DNA of 12,302 nt from Verrucomicrobiota bacterium (GTDB lineage: Bacteria; Verrucomicrobiota; Verrucomicrobiia; Opitutales; UBA2995). Below, piece by piece: positions 1 through 7,361 of the stretch (its first letter is position 1; each line of letters opens with the position of its first letter). Location of the stretch: the NCBI GenBank assembly GCA_027297085.1, contig JAPUIL010000251.1:1-12302 (forward strand), read 5' to 3'. Position numbers and translations under genes: made by a program. Under the pieces are notes generated by a model. That model saw only the letters and a list, made by a program, of their open reading frames with translations. It was not told the origin of the DNA and did no database searches.

Positions 1-1042
1 GCCCCTCCGCAGCAACTTTGATCAACTTCCTTTCTTTGAGAGATAATTTATTGCCCGGACTTGCAGCCACGCCTTCTTCAATCATTGCATCACTAATTCT
101 TTTTTCAATTTGCGCTGCAAGTTTTTGTACGTCGTCTGGTTTTCTCACTAATACAACGACACGACAGGCTTCGCGATGTGTTATATATTCCAAAGCCAGC
201 TCAGAAATTTTCTTCAGCAACGGAGCTCCATCCTTGGAAACCTCGTGCAAATGCAGCGCTTTACTGGCCTCAAGTCTTTTTTTGACAACTGGATTGCTGT
301 GATCCTCCTCAGACAACCCAAACTCGCTATTGGAGGATCTGGACTGCCAATGTGTAGCTGACAATTCCAGAACTTTAATACCGCTGATTCCCTCAAGCTC
401 AATATTTGACTGCGCATTCTCCTGAAACTGTTTTATCGACTTCAAGAGTTTCCCAAAAGCAGGAGTCAAATGCGCTTCATCGTGAATAAATATTGTATCA
501 CAGCCGAGAAAAGCAGCATGCAGAGGTCGTGTCCGACGACTATCCCCGTAACCAGAGAACAGCAACTTACTGCCAATCATATCAACAGTGCCAATAATAA
601 CAGCCGGTTTTGTTGGATTTGATTTCCATTCCTCGTTATCTGCAAGTTCGCCGCGCAGCGTACTCACTGCCAGTGGATTACCTGCCTCATCGCCAAAACA
701 GTCCATTTGTCGCAACTTGCAAGCGGTCGCGTACAGCGCACTTGTACTATCTCCTAGTGCATTTCCTAGCTTCTCCCGAATGGATGAAATCAAATCGGTT
801 GCCTGATCGACAATAGTACGTCGATTGACGACATAGACCAAACGCCTGGGTTGCTTTCTCTCTGGGTTAGCCAAAGCCAGAAGCCACACCACAATGACCA
901 TCGTTTTACCAAGTCCAGTTGGAATACTGCACAGCAGGGGAACTTTGCCTTCGACGAATTCTTGATACAAAGCAACTTGCCAAGGAAATGGAGGATGCCC
1001 TGTTAAACTTTTGAACAACGATGGGAAGTTTGATTGGTTCAT
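1..1042 (-). CDS. cas3: Cas3 helicase, type I-G (I-U), N-terminal part, runs off left edge
   Basis: The minus strand is open from ATG 1042 to the window edge (347 full codons), so this is the N-terminal part of a larger protein. It has the motor motifs of a superfamily 2 helicase: a PFPWQ motif near residues 18-22 (Q-motif-like), Walker A PTGLGKT (41-47), a VVNRRTIVDQ stretch (71-80), a DEAH box (188-191) followed by LTPAF, and motif III SAT (228-230). The opening with PFPWQ, PTGLGKT and RRLVYVVNRRTIVDQAT is the pattern I know from Cas3 of type I-G/I-U CRISPR systems; in that subtype the HD nuclease is usually C-terminal, here out of view. Role: ATP-driven unwinding and degradation of target DNA recruited by Cascade. 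An AGGAGG lies about 19 nt upstream of the ATG, too far for a normal site, so the start is not certain. The rest of the cas operon should lie to the left. Confidence 0.85.
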   Translation of the reverse strand, partial: MNQSNFPSLFKSLTGHPPFPWQVALYQEFVEGKVPLLCSIPTGLGKTMVIVVWLLALANPERKQPRRLVYVVNRRTIVDQATDLISSIREKLGNALGDSTSALYATACKLRQMDCFGDEAGNPLAVSTLRGELADNEEWKSNPTKPAVIIGTVDMIGSKLLFSGYGDSRRTRPLHAAFLGCDTIFIHDEAHLTPAFGKLLKSIKQFQENAQSNIELEGISGIKVLELSATHWQSRSSNSEFGLSEEDHSNPVVKKRLEASKALHLHEVSKDGAPLLKKISELALEYITHREACRVVVLVRKPDDVQKLAAQIEKRISDAMIEEGVAASPGNKLSLKERKLIKVAAEG

Positions 1043-1138
1043 AGTAATGTCTAAGCCACGCCTCCTGACCAAACAATAACTAAATCTTTGTAATCCGCTA
1101 ACATATTCAATAAATGTTATTTCGTATTCTCAAAGTTG

Positions 1139-1344: not shown

Positions 1345-1815
1345 TTATTCTTGCTTCGCGGCGTTGAGGTGTCGCCCGAAGGGCTCGATAGAATCCGATT
1401 TCTTTGAGGATGGGTGTTTCTGGTGGTTCGAGTCGCGACCTCTGGAAGACTGCAACGATTCGGGAGCAAGCTCCCTCCTACATTCTGTTCGGGATGATTG
1501 CGGATGGTTCGATCTGTCGGAATTCAGGATAAATGAAGCCATCAGCGCGCCGGGTTCGGTGAAGACACGCGGCGGCTTGCGTCGTTCTCCGCGACCTTTT
1601 GATCTTCCAAATTGGAATATCAAATTGGTAAATTCTTTATCTGTGAGGACAAAGGAAAATTCTTCCGGGAATCGTGCAAGATTGCGACGAACGGCCTTGT
1701 TGAAATTCCCTGTTGTAACTTTGTAGATCGAAGCCAGATCATTATCCAGAACAACTGATTGATTTCGAATAGTATATATCTTAAGCGTTTCGATTAATTC
1801 TTCTTTGGATTTCAC
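1345..1815 (-). CDS. ORF6N-domain protein with repeat-derived C-terminal tail
   Basis: The 156-residue protein starts at GTG 1815. Residues about 10-101 read as an ORF6N domain: TIRNQSVVLDNDLASIYKV, then NKAVRRNLARFP, EEFSFVLT, and a FTEPGALMASFILNSDRS end. ORF6N proteins are DNA-binding, phage-related regulators; the biochemical role here is unknown. After about residue 102 the similarity stops and the tail is Arg/Ser-rich, encoded by a palindromic repeat (1462-1475) and a second small hairpin, so the natural C-terminus was probably lost. The GTG is chosen because in the duplicated junction it overlaps the stop of the WYL gene as GTGA, typical of coupled genes. At this copy the WYL gene has been displaced by the toxin-antitoxin cassette, so the gene has probably lost its original promoter. 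An in-frame extension to 1899 reads through cassette DNA and is unlikely. Confidence 0.68.
   Translation of the reverse strand: MKSKEELIETLKIYTIRNQSVVLDNDLASIYKVTTGNFNKAVRRNLARFPEEFSFVLTDKEFTNLIFQFGRSKGRGERRKPPRVFTEPGALMASFILNSDRSNHPQSSRTECRRELAPESLQSSRGRDSNHQKHPSSKKSDSIEPFGRHLNAAKQE
1374..1384. repeat. Small GC hairpin GCCC-GAA-GGGC
   Basis: A 4-bp GC stem with a 3-nt loop lies in the ORF6N tail, about 30 nt before its stop on the minus strand. It could be part of the same repeat-derived insertion as the palindrome at 1462, or a weak terminator. No T-tract follows directly, though the minus strand becomes A-rich after the stop. Confidence 0.3.
1462..1475. repeat. REP-like palindrome in ORF6N tail
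   Basis: GGGAGC-AA-GCTCCC forms a perfect 6-bp stem with a 2-nt loop, flanked by CTCCTACATTC. This is the look of dispersed REP-type palindromes found many times in some genomes. It lies inside the last third of the ORF6N reading frame, where protein similarity has already ended. Only one clear copy is in the window, so its dispersed nature is inferred. Confidence 0.5.
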
Positions 1816-1846
1816 GCGTAGTTTTTGCTCAAGACTTTGAGTTCTT
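1788..1846. repeat. 59-bp direct repeat, copy 1 (left side of TA cassette)
   Basis: This is identical base for base to 2361-2419. Read on the minus strand it holds the last 11 codons and TGA stop of the WYL gene (…KNYA then stop at 1812) and the GTG start plus first codons of the ORF6N gene. In this copy only the ORF6N part is joined to a complete gene; the WYL part is a detached tail. It bounds the toxin-antitoxin cassette. Confidence 0.95.
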
Positions 1847-1868
1847 CTGTAATTAAGGGTCTTGCAAT

Positions 1869-1889
1869 AGACTGCTTGCACGACAGTCT
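1869..1889. promoter_or_regulatory. Possible operator upstream of antitoxin
   Basis: AGACTG and CAGTCT form 6-bp inverted arms with a 9-nt centre, ending 8 nt before the antitoxin ATG at 1898. Type II antitoxins commonly repress their own promoter through such a dyad. No clear -10/-35 pair was found between the dyad and the start, so the promoter may lie further upstream, at the repeat edge. Confidence 0.35.
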
Positions 1890-1897
1890 TCCTGCAC

Positions 1898-2119
1898 ATG
1901 AGTACCGTTCAGGAAATCGAATCCGCAATTGAGCAATTGCCCAAGGAAGACGTTTCGAAAATTGCCTTGTGGCTGGAGGACCGCCTACAATCGCAATGGG
2001 ATAAGCAGATCGCGGAAGATGCTGGTTCAGGTAAGTTAGACAAATTCTTCGCAGAACTGACTGCGGATGATGATAGTGAAACAGATCTGGATGAAGTCCT
2101 CGGTAAAGAAGAGTTTTAA
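1898..2119 (+). CDS. Type II antitoxin partner of RelE/ParE-like toxin
   Basis: This 73-residue acidic protein begins MSTVQEIESAIEQLPKEDV and continues KIALWLEDRLQSQWDKQI. The pattern is that of small antitoxins of the addiction-module family that precede RelE/ParE toxins: an N-terminal helical segment with L-P-x-E/D, and a C-terminal Asp/Glu-rich tail (DDDSETDLDEV) likely to wrap and neutralise the toxin. The toxin gene starts inside its last codons (29-nt overlap), so the pair is translationally coupled. It runs opposite to the WYL and ORF6N genes on either side and lies wholly inside the segment bounded by the 59-bp repeats. Family assignment is from pattern; I cannot name the exact antitoxin family. 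Confidence 0.75.
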   Translation: MSTVQEIESAIEQLPKEDVSKIALWLEDRLQSQWDKQIAEDAGSGKLDKFFAELTADDDSETDLDEVLGKEEF

Positions 2120-2351
2120 GAAATGCCTGGCGCAGCTTCCTGAAAATGTGAAGCAAACCGCATTTAAGAATTTTCGACTCTGGCAAGAAAACCCCAAGCA
2201 CCCATCCCTTCACTATAAGAAGGTAGGAAGTTTTGTTTCTGTAAGAATTGGCATCCATTACCGAGCACTTGGAAAAGAAAGCGAAAACAAGGTCGTATGG
2301 TTCTGGATTGGCAGTCATGATGAATATGATCGAATTATTAACCAATTGTAA
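2091..2351 (+). CDS. RelE/ParE-family toxin
   Basis: An 86-residue basic protein from ATG 2091. It has the RelE/ParE fold signature: helical N-terminus (KKSFKKCLAQLPENVKQTAFKNFRLWQENP), then P-SLHYKKV, VSVRIGIHYRAL, and a final strand WFWIGSHDEYDRII. The SHDEYD-ILE ending is typical of this toxin superfamily, which contains both ribosome-dependent mRNA interferases (RelE) and gyrase poisons (ParE); sequence reading alone does not decide between them. An upstream in-frame ATG at 2067 is possible, but 2091 gives the usual length and a typical overlap with the antitoxin. The stop at 2349-2351 lies 9 nt before the second 59-bp repeat. Confidence 0.82.
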   Translation: MKSSVKKSFKKCLAQLPENVKQTAFKNFRLWQENPKHPSLHYKKVGSFVSVRIGIHYRALGKESENKVVWFWIGSHDEYDRIINQL

Positions 2352-2388
2352 TTCGGGCTATTTCGATTAATTCTTCTTTGGATTTCAC
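2338..2388 (-). pseudogene. Truncated ORF6N start left at the second repeat copy
   Basis: In copy 2 of the 59-bp repeat the ORF6N GTG start (2388) still overlaps the WYL stop as GTGA. The frame keeps about nine ORF6N codons (MKSKEELIE), then enters cassette DNA and stops at 2338 after 16 codons. It is the displaced 5' end of the ORF6N gene and shows that WYL and ORF6N were once directly adjacent. Confidence 0.8.
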
Positions 2389-2419
2389 GCGTAGTTTTTG
2401 CTCAAGACTTTGAGTTCTT
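2361..2419. repeat. 59-bp direct repeat, copy 2 (right side of TA cassette)
   Basis: A perfect match to 1788-1846. Here the WYL part is joined to the complete WYL gene and supplies its C-terminus, while the ORF6N start is orphaned. Together the two copies bracket 514 bp (1847-2360) holding the toxin-antitoxin pair and almost nothing else. Confidence 0.95.
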
Positions 2420-3437
2420 TCTTAATATTATTCCTGAGCGCTTTGGGTTTCAGCACTTCGGCATGGCCGCCCCAGGAGAGCGCCCAGCGTTGGATGTCCA
2501 TGAGGTGATTGAGATGGAAGCGGGCGATGACTCCGCCGTTGTTAATTTCCTTCAATCTCTGACTGGGGTGCCATTTGCGCTCGCGAAGGAAGGGTGCGGC
2601 GAATTTGTCGAAGCGTATTTCAATTTCGAATACGTCGACGCCGGTAAAGAGACCAAAGCTGTTTTTAAAATATTCCTGCACGTCGAATTCTGCTGGTGGA
2701 GTAAATGGAGCTCCGGTAGGTGCGAGTGCCTCTATGCGGCTTAGCAGGAATTTGCGGGGCTCATTTTTGTTTTTATCCCAAAACACCAAAGCCCATTGAT
2801 GATCCAGATAAGCGAGATGGAGCGGCCAGAGCGTCCGTGATTCACCACGAACGGAATCTGGCTTGCGATAGCGAATCTTTATCTCCCGCTTTCTCCTAAT
2901 TGCTTCCAGCAATGGACCAAACCAGGTATGCTCCCTATCGTCATCGTGACCCACTTCGGGAGTGCTCAGAAATGACTGAACCTCTGATACAGGTACGGAC
3001 ACCGCCCCACCAATCACCTGGCTCACTTTTTTAAGTATGGAATCCAGCGCCGTTCCCAGAGCAGTACCCTGCCAGGCAGCAAAGGTCTTGCTGGCTAAAG
3101 CAAGAGAAAGCGCTTCATCTCCGCTAACCCTCAACAACGGTAAATACTCATAGGGGCGTTCGCAGAAATAGGTGCCGGTAGACTTCTCCCAGATAATTTC
3201 CATCCCCAATACTTTTCGCATATAGGATAGGTATCGTTTTACCTGACGTTCCCCTACTCCCAGCTCTTTTGCCAGACTGACGGCGGTACAGTTTTTATTT
3301 GCATTGAGCACATTCATAATGTGCAGCAGTCGCTTATAGGGGGGACCAGAAGAAGAGGAGGACATGAGGTTTTGGGGTAATACTAATCGCCAAAAGCAGG
3401 AGCCTTGATTCCTGGCATGGATCCAATCACCAGGCAA
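2385..3437 (-). CDS. WYL-domain transcriptional regulator
   Basis: The open frame is 350 codons from TTG 3437, or 326 from the more likely ATG 3365 (MSSSSSGPPYKRLLHIMNVL). An N-terminal winged helix-turn-helix (SLAKELGVGERQVKRYLSYMRKVLG) is followed by a WYL domain: IKIRYRKPDSVRGESRTLWP, then LHLAYLDHQWALVFWD with WAL in place of the WYL core, and a C-terminal WCX-like segment ending in RWALSWGGHAEVLKP. WYL proteins are DNA-binding regulators thought to sense nucleic-acid or nucleotide ligands, and several are known next to CRISPR-Cas and other defence genes, some as cas repressors. This one lies upstream of cas3 on the same strand, so control of the cas operon is plausible but inferred. Its stop codon falls in the 59-bp repeat and overlaps the old ORF6N start. 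Confidence 0.85.
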   Translation of the reverse strand: MPGDWIHARNQGSCFWRLVLPQNLMSSSSSGPPYKRLLHIMNVLNANKNCTAVSLAKELGVGERQVKRYLSYMRKVLGMEIIWEKSTGTYFCERPYEYLPLLRVSGDEALSLALASKTFAAWQGTALGTALDSILKKVSQVIGGAVSVPVSEVQSFLSTPEVGHDDDREHTWFGPLLEAIRRKREIKIRYRKPDSVRGESRTLWPLHLAYLDHQWALVFWDKNKNEPRKFLLSRIEALAPTGAPFTPPAEFDVQEYFKNSFGLFTGVDVFEIEIRFDKFAAPFLRERKWHPSQRLKEINNGGVIARFHLNHLMDIQRWALSWGGHAEVLKPKALRNNIKKELKVLSKNYA

Positions 3438-3499: not shown

Positions 3500-3769
3500 A
3501 TGCCGAATATACTGATCAGAAACCTTCCTGAGGATTTGCACGCACGCCTGAAAGAAAAAGCAAAGCTCAATAAACGTAGCATTAATCAAGAGGTGATCAC
3601 TGAATTAACCGATTGGAATGAGTCGGTGGAAAATGCCGAGAATGTTGTGGAACGCAGCAAAGCTCGCATGAGGAATGCTGCTAAGCAGATAGATCGATTG
3701 CGTAAGAAAATGACTCTTTTCCTGAGCGCTGAACAAATTGATGAAGCGATCCGTGAGGGAAGAAAGTGA
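3500..3769 (+). CDS. vapB: FitA/VapB-like ribbon-helix-helix antitoxin
   Basis: An 89-residue protein whose first 40 residues form a ribbon-helix-helix DNA-binding domain: strand PNILIRNLPEDL, helix HARLKEKAKLNK, turn R-S-I-N, helix QEVITELTDW. This arrangement is that of FitA-like antitoxins. The basic middle and the C-terminal SAEQIDEAIREGRK segment would bind the toxin. The stop codon overlaps the toxin GTG (GTGA at 3766-3769), a standard coupling. It is likely self-repressed together with the toxin through the upstream palindrome. The gene symbol is by class, not by orthology. Confidence 0.8.
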   Translation: MPNILIRNLPEDLHARLKEKAKLNKRSINQEVITELTDWNESVENAENVVERSKARMRNAAKQIDRLRKKMTLFLSAEQIDEAIREGRK

Positions 3770-4155
3770 TTGTTGTGGATGTAAACGTGCTGGCGGACTA
3801 CCTGATAGGCGATCAGACATTGAAGGTAAATGCCGCCGCGTTGGCATCCCAATATTCTGCATGGATCGCACCCTCCATTTGGCGTTATGAATTGGGAAAT
3901 GTTTTGTGGAAAGTATTTCAGTTTTCGAGTCAGCCGGGGATTGATATAAAACAGGCTTTTGATTCTGCTGAAAAGTTGATCGAAGACACGGTGGAAGGCT
4001 TGAACTGGGAAGAGATTCCCGAAGTGGCTAACTCGAACGCACTAACCTATAATAATGCCTCTTATGTTTGGTTGGCTCAAACGCTGACTATTCCTCTTTA
4101 TACACGTGACAAAAAAATACTCAAAAATTGCCCGGAGCTGGCCAGAACTTACTGA
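3766..4155 (+). CDS. vapC: VapC-like PIN-domain toxin with an altered acidic residue
   Basis: A 129-residue PIN-domain protein starting at GTG 3766, overlapping the antitoxin stop by 4 nt. PIN nucleases cut RNA using a cluster of acidic residues that hold Mg2+. Here D5 (VVDVNVL), E42 (WRYELGNVLW) and D115 (LYTRDKKIL) are in place. The third position, normally Asp in a Y-D-A-x-Y motif, is Asn (YNNASY, N97). The protein is otherwise full length and regular. This could weaken or abolish ribonuclease activity, or N96/N97 may still serve in metal binding. Targets in related toxins are tRNA or rRNA; none can be read from sequence here. Confidence 0.85.
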   Translation: MIVVDVNVLADYLIGDQTLKVNAAALASQYSAWIAPSIWRYELGNVLWKVFQFSSQPGIDIKQAFDSAEKLIEDTVEGLNWEEIPEVANSNALTYNNASYVWLAQTLTIPLYTRDKKILKNCPELARTY

Positions 4156-4222: not shown

Positions 4223-4648
4223 TTAAAGGATTGCCAGATCCAGCCCGTTAAACTGCTCAAACCCTTTGTCAAAAGTCACGAGTTTGAAGCCACTCGAAAT
4301 CGCAAAGGCAGCCAGATAGGCCTCAGCCAATACTTTGGGCGAAGATCCAAAATCAAAGCTCAGTTCGGCCCACTTGGATTGCAAACCAACCGGTTCTCTG
4401 GATTCACTCACATTGGGGTTTTGGATGAAATTTCCATAATAGGCCCAGGCCTGCGGGAGGGTAAGTGGTTCGCCCTGCATCACAGAAGAATTTACCAACA
4501 AACGCAACAGGCCCATTTGAGCTACCCGGCAGATTAAAAGCCTCGAACCGCTTTCCTGGGAGTCAAACCAGTTAATGGATCGCTCGTGATGGTTGTGCCT
4601 GGAATCCGCCAACGCCAGCAGCACATTTACATCAGCGAGAACTTCCAT
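4223..4648 (-). CDS. vapC: VapC-like PIN-domain toxin
   Basis: A 141-residue PIN-domain protein beginning MEVLADVNVLLALAD (D6). The CRVAQMGLLRLLVNSSVM segment, LPQAWAY, and the end LAEAYLAAFAI…LVTFDKGF (D127) match the VapC group with a Q-x-G-[FL]-LRL motif. In this group the third acidic residue is usually Asp in DAYLAA; here it is Glu (E109), a conservative change that may still bind metal. Predicted RNA-cleaving toxin, held inactive by the upstream antitoxin, whose last 17 nt overlap its start. It converges on the vapC that ends at 4155. Confidence 0.86.
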   Translation of the reverse strand: MEVLADVNVLLALADSRHNHHERSINWFDSQESGSRLLICRVAQMGLLRLLVNSSVMQGEPLTLPQAWAYYGNFIQNPNVSESREPVGLQSKWAELSFDFGSSPKVLAEAYLAAFAISSGFKLVTFDKGFEQFNGLDLAIL

Positions 4649-4886
4649 ACCAGTCAGTTTCTTCCGCCGCGAGCAGTGTTTGGATTTCGTCGTTACTCAT
4701 ATCAAAAGGTTTCCGGTTTCCTATGGGAAGCTTAGGCAGCCTGCTCGAATCGGGCTTTGCATGAACATCACTCAATGTTTTTTGCAATCCACGAATGACA
4801 AGTTCGCGTAGCGAAACACCCTGCTCTGCAGCCTTAATCTTTGCTTTCTTGAATAGCTCCTCAGGAATATCAATGGTTGTTCGCAT
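4632..4886 (-). CDS. vapB: VapB-family antitoxin
   Basis: An 84-residue protein from ATG 4886. MRTTIDIPEELFKKAKIKAAEQGVSL is a ribbon-helix-helix opening typical of VapB/CopG-like antitoxins (strand, then two helices with RELVIRGLQ). The tail PFDMSNDEIQTLLAAEETDWY is acidic and probably binds the toxin. An in-frame upstream start (4928) exists but would include promoter DNA: a consensus -35 TTGACA lies within it, so 4886 is preferred. The gene overlaps its toxin by 17 nt. It is divergent from the sulfatase. Confidence 0.84.
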   Translation of the reverse strand: MRTTIDIPEELFKKAKIKAAEQGVSLRELVIRGLQKTLSDVHAKPDSSRLPKLPIGNRKPFDMSNDEIQTLLAAEETDWYGSSR

Positions 4887-4917
4887 ATTTAGATACATAT
4901 TTATGCATTGAAATATG
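4884..4917. promoter_or_regulatory. Repeated operator half-sites overlapping the vapBC promoter
   Basis: CATATTTA occurs at 4884-4891 and again at 4896-4903 (12-bp spacing), and AAATATG in inverted orientation at 4911-4917. These cover the -10 element and the start codon, a usual layout for self-repression by ribbon-helix-helix antitoxins. Confidence 0.5.
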
Positions 4918-4921
4918 TCAA
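4893..4921 (-). promoter_or_regulatory. Sigma-70-like promoter of vapBC, probably leaderless
   Basis: On the minus strand a perfect TTGACA (-35, 4921-4916) is followed after 16 bp by TATGTA (-10, 4899-4894). Initiation 6-7 nt beyond would fall at or next to the ATG at 4886, so the transcript is predicted to have little or no leader. This also explains the lack of a Shine-Dalgarno site. Confidence 0.65.
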
Positions 4922-5016
4922 TCTCCAATTCCCTTTGAATACGTCAGTTAATAACTTCCCGGCAGGGAAATAATAATCGTATTTCATTCTGCTACCTTTG
5001 TATTACTTTTGGGTCC

Positions 5017-6411
5017 ATGAAAACTACAGTTCCATATTCCCGGATTCTTTTAATAGTCCCGATAGCGCTTGTTGCCTGGGCACTCTCGGCAAAAGCGGAA
5101 AATCACAACCAGCCCAATATCCTGTTCATTTTAGCGGATGACCTCACATTCCGGGATATCGGCTGTTATGGCAGTGAGAATGTCGAAACACCCCACATCG
5201 ACTCACTGGCGGAGAATGGTATGCGTTTCACGCGCTGTTTCCAAGCTGCGCCGATGTGCTCGCCCACGCGTCACAACATTTACACTGGATTGTACCCGGT
5301 AAAGACTGGGGCGTATCCCAACGCCACCTGGGCAAAGGACGGCACAAAAAGCGTGGCCCATTACCTGAAAGAGGCAGGGTATCGAGTCGGCCTGACGGGC
5401 AAAAGGCACATAGCCCCAGAAGAGGTGTTTCCTTTTGATTACCTGAGCGAATCGAACGATCCGGATATGGCGGCGCTGGAGGAGTTTCTCACCCGGGATA
5501 AAGAGCAACCATCCTGCACCTTTCTCTGCTTCAACGAACCGCATACACCGTGGACTCTAGGTGACCCCAGTATTTACGATCCCGAAACCATTAAACTGCC
5601 TCCCTATTTCGTGGATACTCAGGTGACGCGGAAGCACATGGTTAACTATTATGCGGAAGTTAAACACCTCGATGATTCCGTAGGAAAAGTCACTGCTCTG
5701 CTCGACAAGCTCAACTTGACAGACAATACCGTGTTGGTGTTTGCCAGCGAACAAGGTAATGCGATGCCATTTGCCAAATGGACCTGTTACGACAGCGGAC
5801 TCCAGTCTGCCCTCATCGCTCGATGGCCGGGCAAGATAACCCTTGGTTCCAAAACGGACGCGATGGTCGAATACGTGGATATCCTGCCGACCTTTCTTGA
5901 AATAGCTGGAGTATCATCCATGGATGTTCTAGACGGTGAGAGTTTCGTGCCGGTCCTGTTCGGGAAAAGGCAGCACCACAAGAAATACGTCTACGCCCTT
6001 CAAACCACCCGAGGTATAACCAACGGATCGGAACACTATGGGATTCGTTCGATAAGATCGGAGCGTTTCAAGTTCATCCTAAATCTCACCCCTGAAGCAA
6101 CATTTCAGAACAATCTCACCGAGAACAAAGGAGGCTGGACCGAATTCTGGCCGACTTGGGTAAAAGCGGCACAATCGGATACATTCGCCAAGGAAACCAT
6201 TCATCGCTATCAGCACAGACCATCAGAAGAACTGTACGACATCGTTGAGGATCCCTATGAATTCAATAACCTCGCTGAACAAGGCAAATATAAGACGATT
6301 AAGAAAGATCTTCGACTTCGCCTGTTGCGTTGGATGGATGAACAGGGCGATCTCGGACAAGCTACCGAGATGGACGCCATGAACCATACCAATAAGCCTG
6401 GTCCTGGCTAA
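5017..6411 (+). CDS. Secreted type I (FGly) sulfatase
   Basis: A 464-residue S1-family sulfatase. An N-terminal signal peptide (basic MKTTVPYSR, hydrophobic core, AKA just before residue 28) predicts export. The metal site starts with NILFILADD (D41, D42). The maturation motif CSPTR at 81-85 gives C81, expected to be converted to formylglycine by a sulfatase-maturating enzyme not in this window, and R85. TGKRH (129-131) and NEPH (H176) fit the active site. The usual S-D-[HN]-G is replaced by SEQGN (244-248) before PFAKWTCYDSG (K254), as in a subset of sulfatases related to heparan-type sulfohydrolases. It releases sulfate from a sulfated sugar; the substrate cannot be told. It ends with a LYDIVEDPYEFNNL motif typical of the C-terminal domain. 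It stands alone between toxin-antitoxin modules. Confidence 0.9.
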   Translation: MKTTVPYSRILLIVPIALVAWALSAKAENHNQPNILFILADDLTFRDIGCYGSENVETPHIDSLAENGMRFTRCFQAAPMCSPTRHNIYTGLYPVKTGAYPNATWAKDGTKSVAHYLKEAGYRVGLTGKRHIAPEEVFPFDYLSESNDPDMAALEEFLTRDKEQPSCTFLCFNEPHTPWTLGDPSIYDPETIKLPPYFVDTQVTRKHMVNYYAEVKHLDDSVGKVTALLDKLNLTDNTVLVFASEQGNAMPFAKWTCYDSGLQSALIARWPGKITLGSKTDAMVEYVDILPTFLEIAGVSSMDVLDGESFVPVLFGKRQHHKKYVYALQTTRGITNGSEHYGIRSIRSERFKFILNLTPEATFQNNLTENKGGWTEFWPTWVKAAQSDTFAKETIHRYQHRPSEELYDIVEDPYEFNNLAEQGKYKTIKKDLRLRLLRWMDEQGDLGQATEMDAMNHTNKPGPG

Positions 6412-6425
6412 GCTCCATTTGAAGA

Positions 6426-6608
6426 GGTCAAACCTGAATGTCACTCACTTAAGGCCGTTATAAGCGAATCTACGGTCCATTTCCATTCGAGGGGGTCAAA
6501 CCTTAAATCCCGCATTGGCATGCACGATTGCAAGGAATGACCCCGAAGCCGGTCTTGCTCCGATATTTGACAAAAAACCGCTTAAGTGAGTGCCATTCAG
6601 GTCAAACC
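6426..6608. mobile_element. 165-bp MITE-like element with 9-bp target duplication
   Basis: Terminal inverted repeats of 19 bp lie at 6435-6453 and 6581-6599 (18 of 19 match; the left reads TGAATGTCACTCACTTAAG). The direct repeat GGTCAAACC flanks them at 6426-6434 and 6600-6608 as a target-site duplication. The 165-bp interior has no coding capacity, so this is a non-autonomous element probably moved by an IS transposase elsewhere. Removing it restores a continuous copy of the 53-bp repeat that ends at 6650, which supports the insertion. Confidence 0.72.
6492..6544. repeat. 53-bp palindrome-ended repeat, copy A
   Basis: It starts GGGGTCA and ends TGACCCC (inverted 7-bp ends). From GGTCA onward it matches copy B (6600-6650) at 46 of 51 positions, and all five differences are transitions. 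It lies inside the MITE-like element. The GGGGTCA…TGACCCC ends resemble REP units mobilised by IS200-like (RAYT) transposases; that link is inferred. Confidence 0.75.
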
Positions 6609-6650
6609 TTGAATCCCACATTGGTATGCGCGATTACAAGGAATGACCCC
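6598..6650. repeat. 53-bp repeat, copy B, interrupted by the MITE
   Basis: Same family as copy A, ending in TGACCCC. Its left end is altered (CAGGTCA rather than GGGGTCA) because the MITE inserted within GGTCAAACC; the other part of its flank lies at 6421-6434. It directly abuts the operator-like dyad of the next vapBC. Confidence 0.72.
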
Positions 6651-6687
6651 GGTAATTGTATTGCTTAATGCAACAATTGGTATTACC
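6651..6687. promoter_or_regulatory. Imperfect dyad operator/promoter of third vapBC
   Basis: Nested inverted arms: GGTAAT (6651-6656) with ATTACC (6682-6687), ATTGT (6655-6659) with ACAAT (6673-6677), TTGC (6661-6664) with GCAA (6670-6673). TTGTAT (6656-6661) and TATTAC (6681-6686) could be a -35/-10 pair at 19 bp. The start codon at 6697 follows 10 nt later, giving a very short leader. Confidence 0.5.
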
Positions 6688-6696
6688 TTTGCTCGC

Positions 6697-6948
6697 ATGA
6701 AAACAATTACCATCAAAGTGCCTGAGGAACTGGATGCACGACTTGCGATGCGTGCCAAACGACGCGGAGTGTCGAAATCAGAAGTGGCACGGGAGGCATT
6801 TGTTCAATTGTTGGGCGACAAATCACAAGAATCGGTTGAGGAAGAACCCTCCGCATACGACATCTTAAAAGATGATCTTGGCTGCATCGATAGCGGCATT
6901 GGTGACCTTTCAACGAATCCGAAACACATGGAAGGTTTTGGTAAGTAA
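6697..6948 (+). CDS. vapB: Ribbon-helix-helix antitoxin of third VapBC module
   Basis: An 83-residue protein from ATG 6697. MKTITIKVPEELDARLAMRAKRRGVSKSEVAREAF is a clear ribbon-helix-helix DNA-binding domain. The acidic tail (VEEEPSAYDILKDDLGCIDS…DLSTNPKHMEGFGK) matches antitoxins that pair with PIN toxins. An in-frame start at 6643 would lie in the repeat copy and across the operator, so it is rejected. The stop shares one base with the toxin start (TAATG). Confidence 0.85.
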   Translation: MKTITIKVPEELDARLAMRAKRRGVSKSEVAREAFVQLLGDKSQESVEEEPSAYDILKDDLGCIDSGIGDLSTNPKHMEGFGK

Positions 6949-7361
6949 TGCGAACAACTGTCATCGATACAGGTCCCTTGGTAGCCGCATTCGATTCGAG
7001 AGATCAGTATCACAACCTGACCTCTCGAATATTTACTGACATCACCATGCCTCTTATAACATGCGAAGCTGTGGTTGTGGAAACATGTTTTCTTCTTTCA
7101 AAATTTCCCGATGCACTCCAACGGTTTGGAAACTGGCTGCATATGGCCCGAATACAAGTTCCTTTCAGAATTTCTGATGAAAGCAGACATGTATTCTCAC
7201 TCATGAAAAAATATGAGGATATGCCCATGTCCTTGGCGGACGCATGCCTGGTTGTCATGGTAGAACTGAATCCGGAACTTGGTGTGTTCACGTTCGACAA
7301 ACACTTTCAGATCTACCGTACTGCCTCCAGACGAGTTATCAAAACCGTAGGTCTCGATTAG
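6948..7361 (+). CDS. vapC: VapC-like PIN-domain toxin with full catalytic set
   Basis: A 137-residue PIN nuclease. All four usual acidic positions are present: D7 (VIDTGPLVAAFD), E45 (AVVVETCFLL), D98 (MSLADACLV) and D117 (VFTFDKHF). It is therefore the most likely of the three PIN toxins in the window to be active as an RNA endonuclease. It is co-translated with the antitoxin through a TAATG overlap. No obvious terminator follows before dnaE. Confidence 0.88.
   Translation: MRTTVIDTGPLVAAFDSRDQYHNLTSRIFTDITMPLITCEAVVVETCFLLSKFPDALQRFGNWLHMARIQVPFRISDESRHVFSLMKKYEDMPMSLADACLVVMVELNPELGVFTFDKHFQIYRTASRRVIKTVGLD

Follow-up and report, generated by a model that had tools for sequence, protein, structure and literature searches.

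A predicted toxin-antitoxin (TA) pair was found between a WYL-domain regulator gene and an ORF6N-domain gene, bracketed by an exact 59-bp direct duplication of the junction of these two genes. The window, by which we mean the whole stretch of 12,302 nt that was analysed, corresponds to contig C170 of a draft assembly that is fragmented into 849 contigs and 76% complete. We see about an even chance that the TA pair entered the WYL/ORF6N junction by recombination without a transposase of its own, and that about 59 bp of host DNA was duplicated in the process. Similar cassettes likely enter other genomes in the same manner, by duplicating a gene end without their own transposase. The features of the locus are as follows.

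2-1072, minus strand: cas3g, type I-G CRISPR helicase, truncated where the contig ends (PADLOC Cas3g, E 6e-95)
1342-1488, no strand: dispersed repeats at the ORF6N gene end (1342-1392 in sister genomes; 1456-1488 in the source and sister genomes)
1345-1815, minus strand: ORF6N-domain gene, read from the GTG at 1815 (PADLOC PDC-S05), its start placed by eye as in the homologue of genome G030
1788-1846, no strand: left 59-bp copy, in which the ORF6N start belongs to the gene and the WYL 3' end is a remnant (exact identity)
1847-2360, plus strand: TA cassette insert, 514 bp, with 51 bp ahead of the antitoxin start and 9 bp past the toxin stop
1898-2119, plus strand: antitoxin-like ORF, 73 aa, upstream of the toxin, the two ORFs overlapping
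2091-2351, plus strand: predicted toxin, RelE/ParE superfamily, PF24732 ParE_like (Pfam E 5e-8)
2361-2419, no strand: right 59-bp copy, in which the WYL 3' end belongs to the gene and the ORF6N start is a remnant (exact identity)
2385-3437, minus strand: predicted WYL/WCX-domain regulator (profile match, PADLOC)

Self-comparison of the window showed that positions 1788-1846 and 2361-2419 are identical, as the original prediction had claimed, and that the bordering bases mismatch on both sides (G/A before, C/T after). No longer exact direct repeat occurs in the window, and the longest in 100 block-shuffled versions was 15 bp. On the WYL side the similarity runs on for 7 extra bases, 4 of which are identical, giving a total of 66 nt at 95%. 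Both copies carry the overlapping GTGA that forms the WYL end and the ORF6N start. The TGA of WYL lies at 2387-2385 in the right copy and the GTG of ORF6N begins at 1815 in the left copy. As the junction is present twice, neither the stop of WYL nor the start of ORF6N is lost. When the flanks were joined in silico, a single junction was obtained with both frames intact, which agrees with the earlier statement that the two host genes survive through the duplication. The 514-bp insert was said to hold only a RelE/ParE-type pair, and accordingly its only gene-like open frames were 1898-2119 and about 2091-2351, both on the plus strand; no transposase or recombinase was found in it, and no inverted pair was present at its ends among those listed. 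The perfect identity had also been read as a sign of a recent event. That reading is weakly supported, since zero differences in 59 bp bound the divergence at only about 5% (rule of three). Neither present-day recombination between the copies nor autonomous movement of the element, as also suggested, gained support. The possibility that the repeat is a dispersed element was ruled out: an 801-bp region containing it matched only itself in the source draft genome, and it was absent from the other loci compared. Likewise, the 59-bp repeat matched its own locus only, among the loci compared, and so offered no common core as for att sites.

The toxin consists of 86 aa when read from the ATG at 2091, the same length as the database protein P0001, and the mechanical ORF begins at 2067. 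Its predicted model had a pLDDT of 84.5, and the predicted fold matched RelE/YoeB in Foldseek, the best match being a RelE toxin with a TM-score of 0.77. The antitoxin-like ORF had no Pfam or NCBIfam match and was, in five relatives, 25-40% identical to the ORF that precedes the toxin. By its sequence and its predicted fold, the pair is a putative type II TA system of the RelE/ParE superfamily.

Toxin relatives were collected from 387 genomes of the phylum, of which 47 had a match at E <= 1e-6, and further relatives came from other sequence searches, viral contigs and plasmids (3 records, with the toxin of the phage locus L241 as query); the same query gave no match in 50,697 phage records. 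For each locus, 400 bp upstream of the presumed antitoxin were compared with 400 bp downstream of the toxin, with a cut-off score of at least 17. The resulting set of 71 loci includes the window, which was the seed. It omits L187 and L189, in which the toxin was not located, and L030 and L195, which were second fetches (L030 is the place of L268). L034, L201, L244, other duplicate fetches and the toxin-match places beyond the loci fetched were never scored. The ParE relatives L029-L034, which showed no flank repeats, are counted in the 71 except for L030 and L034.

Direct flank repeats at or above the cut-off bracketed the TA pair in 11 of the 71 toxin-family loci. The same score was reached by 0 of 837 swapped-flank comparisons, by none of the 71 loci in the inverted comparison and by 5 of 1500 random segments, of which 3 lay in a single repeat-rich locus. 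The random segments were drawn from WYL-relative loci (mostly of the same phylum), G001 and G000. Without the seed window the count was 10 of 70 loci (Fisher p 4e-11). Two of the repeats, at L281 and L196, look dispersed by eye; with these counted as misses and the seed excluded, the count was 8 of 70 (p 1e-8). The repeat length ranged from 32 to 165 bp among the 11 positive loci. No direct flank repeat was detected by this test in the other 60 loci. Apart from L241, six viral relatives lacked one, as did two of the three plasmid relatives. The repeat therefore marks only some insertions and is not a constant component of the cassette. Elsewhere, other duplications flank some members of this TA family, in line with the original prediction.

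In 6 of the 11 loci the repeat was part of a host gene end, a different gene each time, while the repeats of L292, L300 and L315 were not tied to a gene end. The six gene-end cases are:

WYL/ORF6N junction (window): repeat 59 bp, insert 514 bp
Phage junction of a DUF5681 gene and a terminase large-subunit gene: repeat 46 bp, insert 516 bp
Aminotransferase 3' end (Pfam name): repeat 47 bp, insert 573 bp
rppB 3' region, complete plasmid pMB03 of the cyanobacterium Acaryochloris: repeat 53 bp, insert 581 bp
5' end of a gene without Pfam match: repeat 56 bp, insert 642 bp
5' end of a second gene without Pfam match: repeat 165 bp, insert 598 bp

The repeat of the rppB case stops 65 bp before the rppB stop. 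In five of these cases, 0-41 bp separate the toxin stop from the right border of the insert, and at L270 the repeat starts within the stop codon.

The origin of the second copy could be followed best in the phage case. Relatives lacking the insert had been expected from the original prediction. Two were found for the phage family member, whereas the relatives searched yielded no empty WYL-ORF6N site for the locus of the window itself. The phage relatives L326 and L327 (85-91% DNA identity in four blocks) carry the DUF5681/terminase overlap once, with no TA pair between the genes, and the filled phage L241 carries this junction twice. Compared with these outgroups, the two L241 copies showed 6 differences, of which 5 were derived in the terminase-side copy, where the DUF5681 end is a remnant, and 1 in the other. 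Moreover, four letters were common to both L241 copies and unlike both outgroup phages. Such a pattern would be expected if the junction duplicated itself at insertion and drift set in afterwards, and the phase-resolved phage case therefore points to self-duplication.

One alternative is an import anchored by homology, which we consider unlikely. The TA pair would arrive on DNA that also carries the neighbour's gene end, homologous recombination would take place there, the other side would join illegitimately, and the recipient's own gene end would be left as a scar. The differences between copies speak for it. In five family loci they numbered 7, 12 and 32 at codon positions 1, 2 and 3 (51 in total), and 41 of 61 were at the third position once the HigB-type and nucleotidyltransferase loci described below were added. 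The excess of 32 in 51 gave a binomial p of 2e-5 against one third and of 0.002 against 0.42, the share that we would roughly expect if one copy is constrained and the other drifts. Since self-duplication with a drifting remnant predicts less third-position bias, some second copies may be imported from a homologue. At L286 both peptide copies look like plausible family members, and among 120 listed homologues 62 were nearer the intact-gene copy, 11 were nearer the other, and the rest were tied or unmatched. The comparison of rppB with four relatives was mixed, the homologue letters agreeing 19 times with R1, 10 times with R2 and 15 times with neither. Such a process, homology-facilitated illegitimate recombination, has been reported in transformable bacteria (PMC2884548) and has been suggested for effector-immunity modules (PMC5361080). 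The L241 copies, with their shared letters and with 5 of 6 differences in the remnant, and the identical copies in the window argue against the import. It also requires a donor with the TA pair at the same gene, and none was found.

An enzyme acting in trans, either a transposase or an integrase, could also mobilise the cassette, with a target duplication that would be unusually long at about 50-60 bp. In favour are the repeats of 46, 47, 53, 56 and 59 bp in all but one of the gene-end cases and the similar insert sizes. Known transposases make short target duplications, a poor fit to the repeats here. Furthermore, one repeat is 165 bp long, terminal inverted repeats were lacking (none of the 71 loci at score 17), and no shared sequence was seen by eye at the insert borders of the gene-end cases. 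We regard this explanation as improbable. An assembly artefact of the draft genome is very improbable: the perfect identity of the copies, the 849 contigs and the fact that 59 is one of the k-mer sizes of a common assembler would favour it, but a similar architecture occurs on a complete plasmid and in loci with copies of only 79-98% identity, unlike k-mer joining, and the similarity in the window runs past 59 bp with mismatches.

Returning to recombination without an own transposase, the events at the window may have taken the following order. The event would exit the host DNA at one point and re-enter about 59 bp behind it, so that the gene junction is copied. With the junction duplicated, the WYL stop and the ORF6N start are both retained. 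An ordinary insert flanked in this way would be prone to loss via recombination between the copies, while a functional TA pair would be retained by addiction, since losing cells would suffer harm. In a wider form, which we hold as a possible but somewhat doubtful reading, RelE-type TA pairs of about 515-640 bp would be recombinase-free mobile addiction cassettes that jump into gene junctions, including those of CRISPR-Cas and phage packaging operons, duplicate about 50-60 bp of the target, which would let the adjacent genes survive, and retain themselves by addiction.

Footprints of a similar form were also found around other cargo. A duplicated transporter 3' end of 148 bp (93%) encloses a PF05973 (HigB-type) toxin and its HTH partner in G036, and in L095 a DUF6036 nucleotidyltransferase pair lies inside a duplicated WYL 3' end of 158 bp (98%); each is a single case. 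The related locus L094 has one WYL 3' end in the stretch examined, and about 1 kb further on its DNA is 94% identical to part of the nucleotidyltransferase pair of L095. Part of a nucleotidyltransferase-like gene is 94% identical between L094:7970-8539 and L095:7140-7710, with WYL regions 85% identical, hinting at a recent exchange between these two genomes. A 123-bp, 93% direct repeat surrounds a two-gene unit in L103 (7417-7539 and 8623-8745), from Chthoniobacterales, and was not tied to a host gene.

In the comparison sets, direct repeats with a score of at least 17 were found in 0 of 22 WYL and 0 of 6 ORF6N loci, and in 3 of 27 GxxExxY and 1 of 7 PF05973 loci, with one contig-end artefact omitted from each of the latter two; the PF05973 set of 7 loci is too few for a rate. 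The values for L215 and L324 were contig-end artefacts and were unused. The KilA-N set gave 1 of 12 at test offsets that miss L245 (the same locus as L035), while self-BLAST showed repeats around the gene in 4 of the 12. Inverted repeats occurred near the gene in 10 of 27 testable GxxExxY loci, and in more at a looser cut. Together with the 3 direct cases, these results indicate that small genes other than TA pairs can also have repeats beside them. The GxxExxY genes (L203-L232; L011:975-1352) are very common in this order, being present in 25 of 52 genomes with up to 11 matches in one, and from their sequences look like a dispersed single-gene element. G010, in which a GxxExxY gene with direct repeats follows WYL, had been considered a second instance and was dropped, because the inverted repeats of 10 of the 27 GxxExxY loci suggest another element type. 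An ORF6N remnant proposed in G010 was dropped as well, its basis being one 27-bp near-palindromic match.

On the minus strand of the window, the order of genes is the WYL/WCX regulator, ORF6N and then cas3g. The cas3g gene also matched TIGR02621 (E 4e-90), under the curated cut-off as the gene is cut, and the ORF6N gene is apparently shortened at its 3' end, within the dispersed repeats (by eye). Five named records with a WYL at least 41% identical to that of the window were Opitutales or Opitutaceae-type draft genomes. Six loci with both genes visible, the window included, were used to compare the gap between WYL and cas3. In L037, cas3 begins 46 bp past WYL, and in L164 the cas3 match starts about 150 bp past the WYL match. 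Other DNA without repeats separates the two genes in L038 and L039. In L035 (G051), a KilA-N gene (PADLOC label PDC-S22) lies between them with a 342-bp, 94% identical duplication that extends 32 bp into cas3g; part of this repeat is dispersed in the genome, and the whole is not. The junction is thus duplicated in 2 of the 6 loci, and their gene content indicates that the gap between WYL and cas3 takes up extra genes. In L003 (G030:C113), an ORF6N gene lies between a csb2-like gene (by eye) and a cas3g-like helicase, which indicates that ORF6N genes recur beside cas3g. The insert in the window may uncouple ORF6N and cas3g from WYL.

Further TA-like genes were observed in the window. A FitA-like/PIN pair and another PIN pair, encoded on the opposite strand, occupy 3500-4155 and 4223-4928, and a third, PIN-like and TA-like pair was recognised by eye only at 6643-7361. 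An imperfect repeat cluster at 6405-6651, with a 52-bp direct pair at 90% and 29-bp inverted arms, sits between a sulfatase-like gene (by eye) and a TA-like pair.

To our knowledge, the spread of small TA modules between genomes without a recombinase is poorly explained. A duplicated gene end is a readable scar that allows insertions to be located and, where relatives with an empty site exist, to be polarised. The footprint further hints at a selective filter, in which an insert between direct repeats would be unstable unless its own loss is punished. The cassette in the window separates a predicted WYL regulator from cas3g and so bears on the invasion of defence operons by TA pairs.

The pair resembles the type II TA systems of the RelE/ParE superfamily (PF24732) in its RelE/YoeB-like predicted fold and in the small upstream antitoxin-like ORF that overlaps the toxin, and differs from them in an antitoxin without a Pfam or NCBIfam family and in the flanking gene-end duplication. 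Among the papers listed for TA systems with insertion, direct repeats or target duplication, judged by their titles and the opening of their abstracts, no description of such a footprint was found. Small variable segments flanked by direct repeats have been reported, in which most repeats are shorter than 30 bp and are read as deletion substrates (PMC2884548). These segments share with the window the small insert, the flanking direct repeats and recombination as the likely cause, whereas the repeats of the window type are longer and duplicate host gene ends around a TA pair. For the displacement of T6SS effector-immunity modules in Vibrio, homology-facilitated illegitimate recombination has been proposed (PMC5361080). 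There, too, toxin/immunity cargo lies beside a conserved gene and older gene pieces are kept, but what stays is an orphan immunity gene, while here a gene end remains as a second copy.

Direct repeats on both sides of an insert at a gene end are likewise a feature of insertion sequences, MITEs and integrase-borne elements. The cassette differs from them in having no transposase, integrase, inverted ends or common core, and its duplication is long and variable; on the features tested, it is neither a transposon nor an att-type element.
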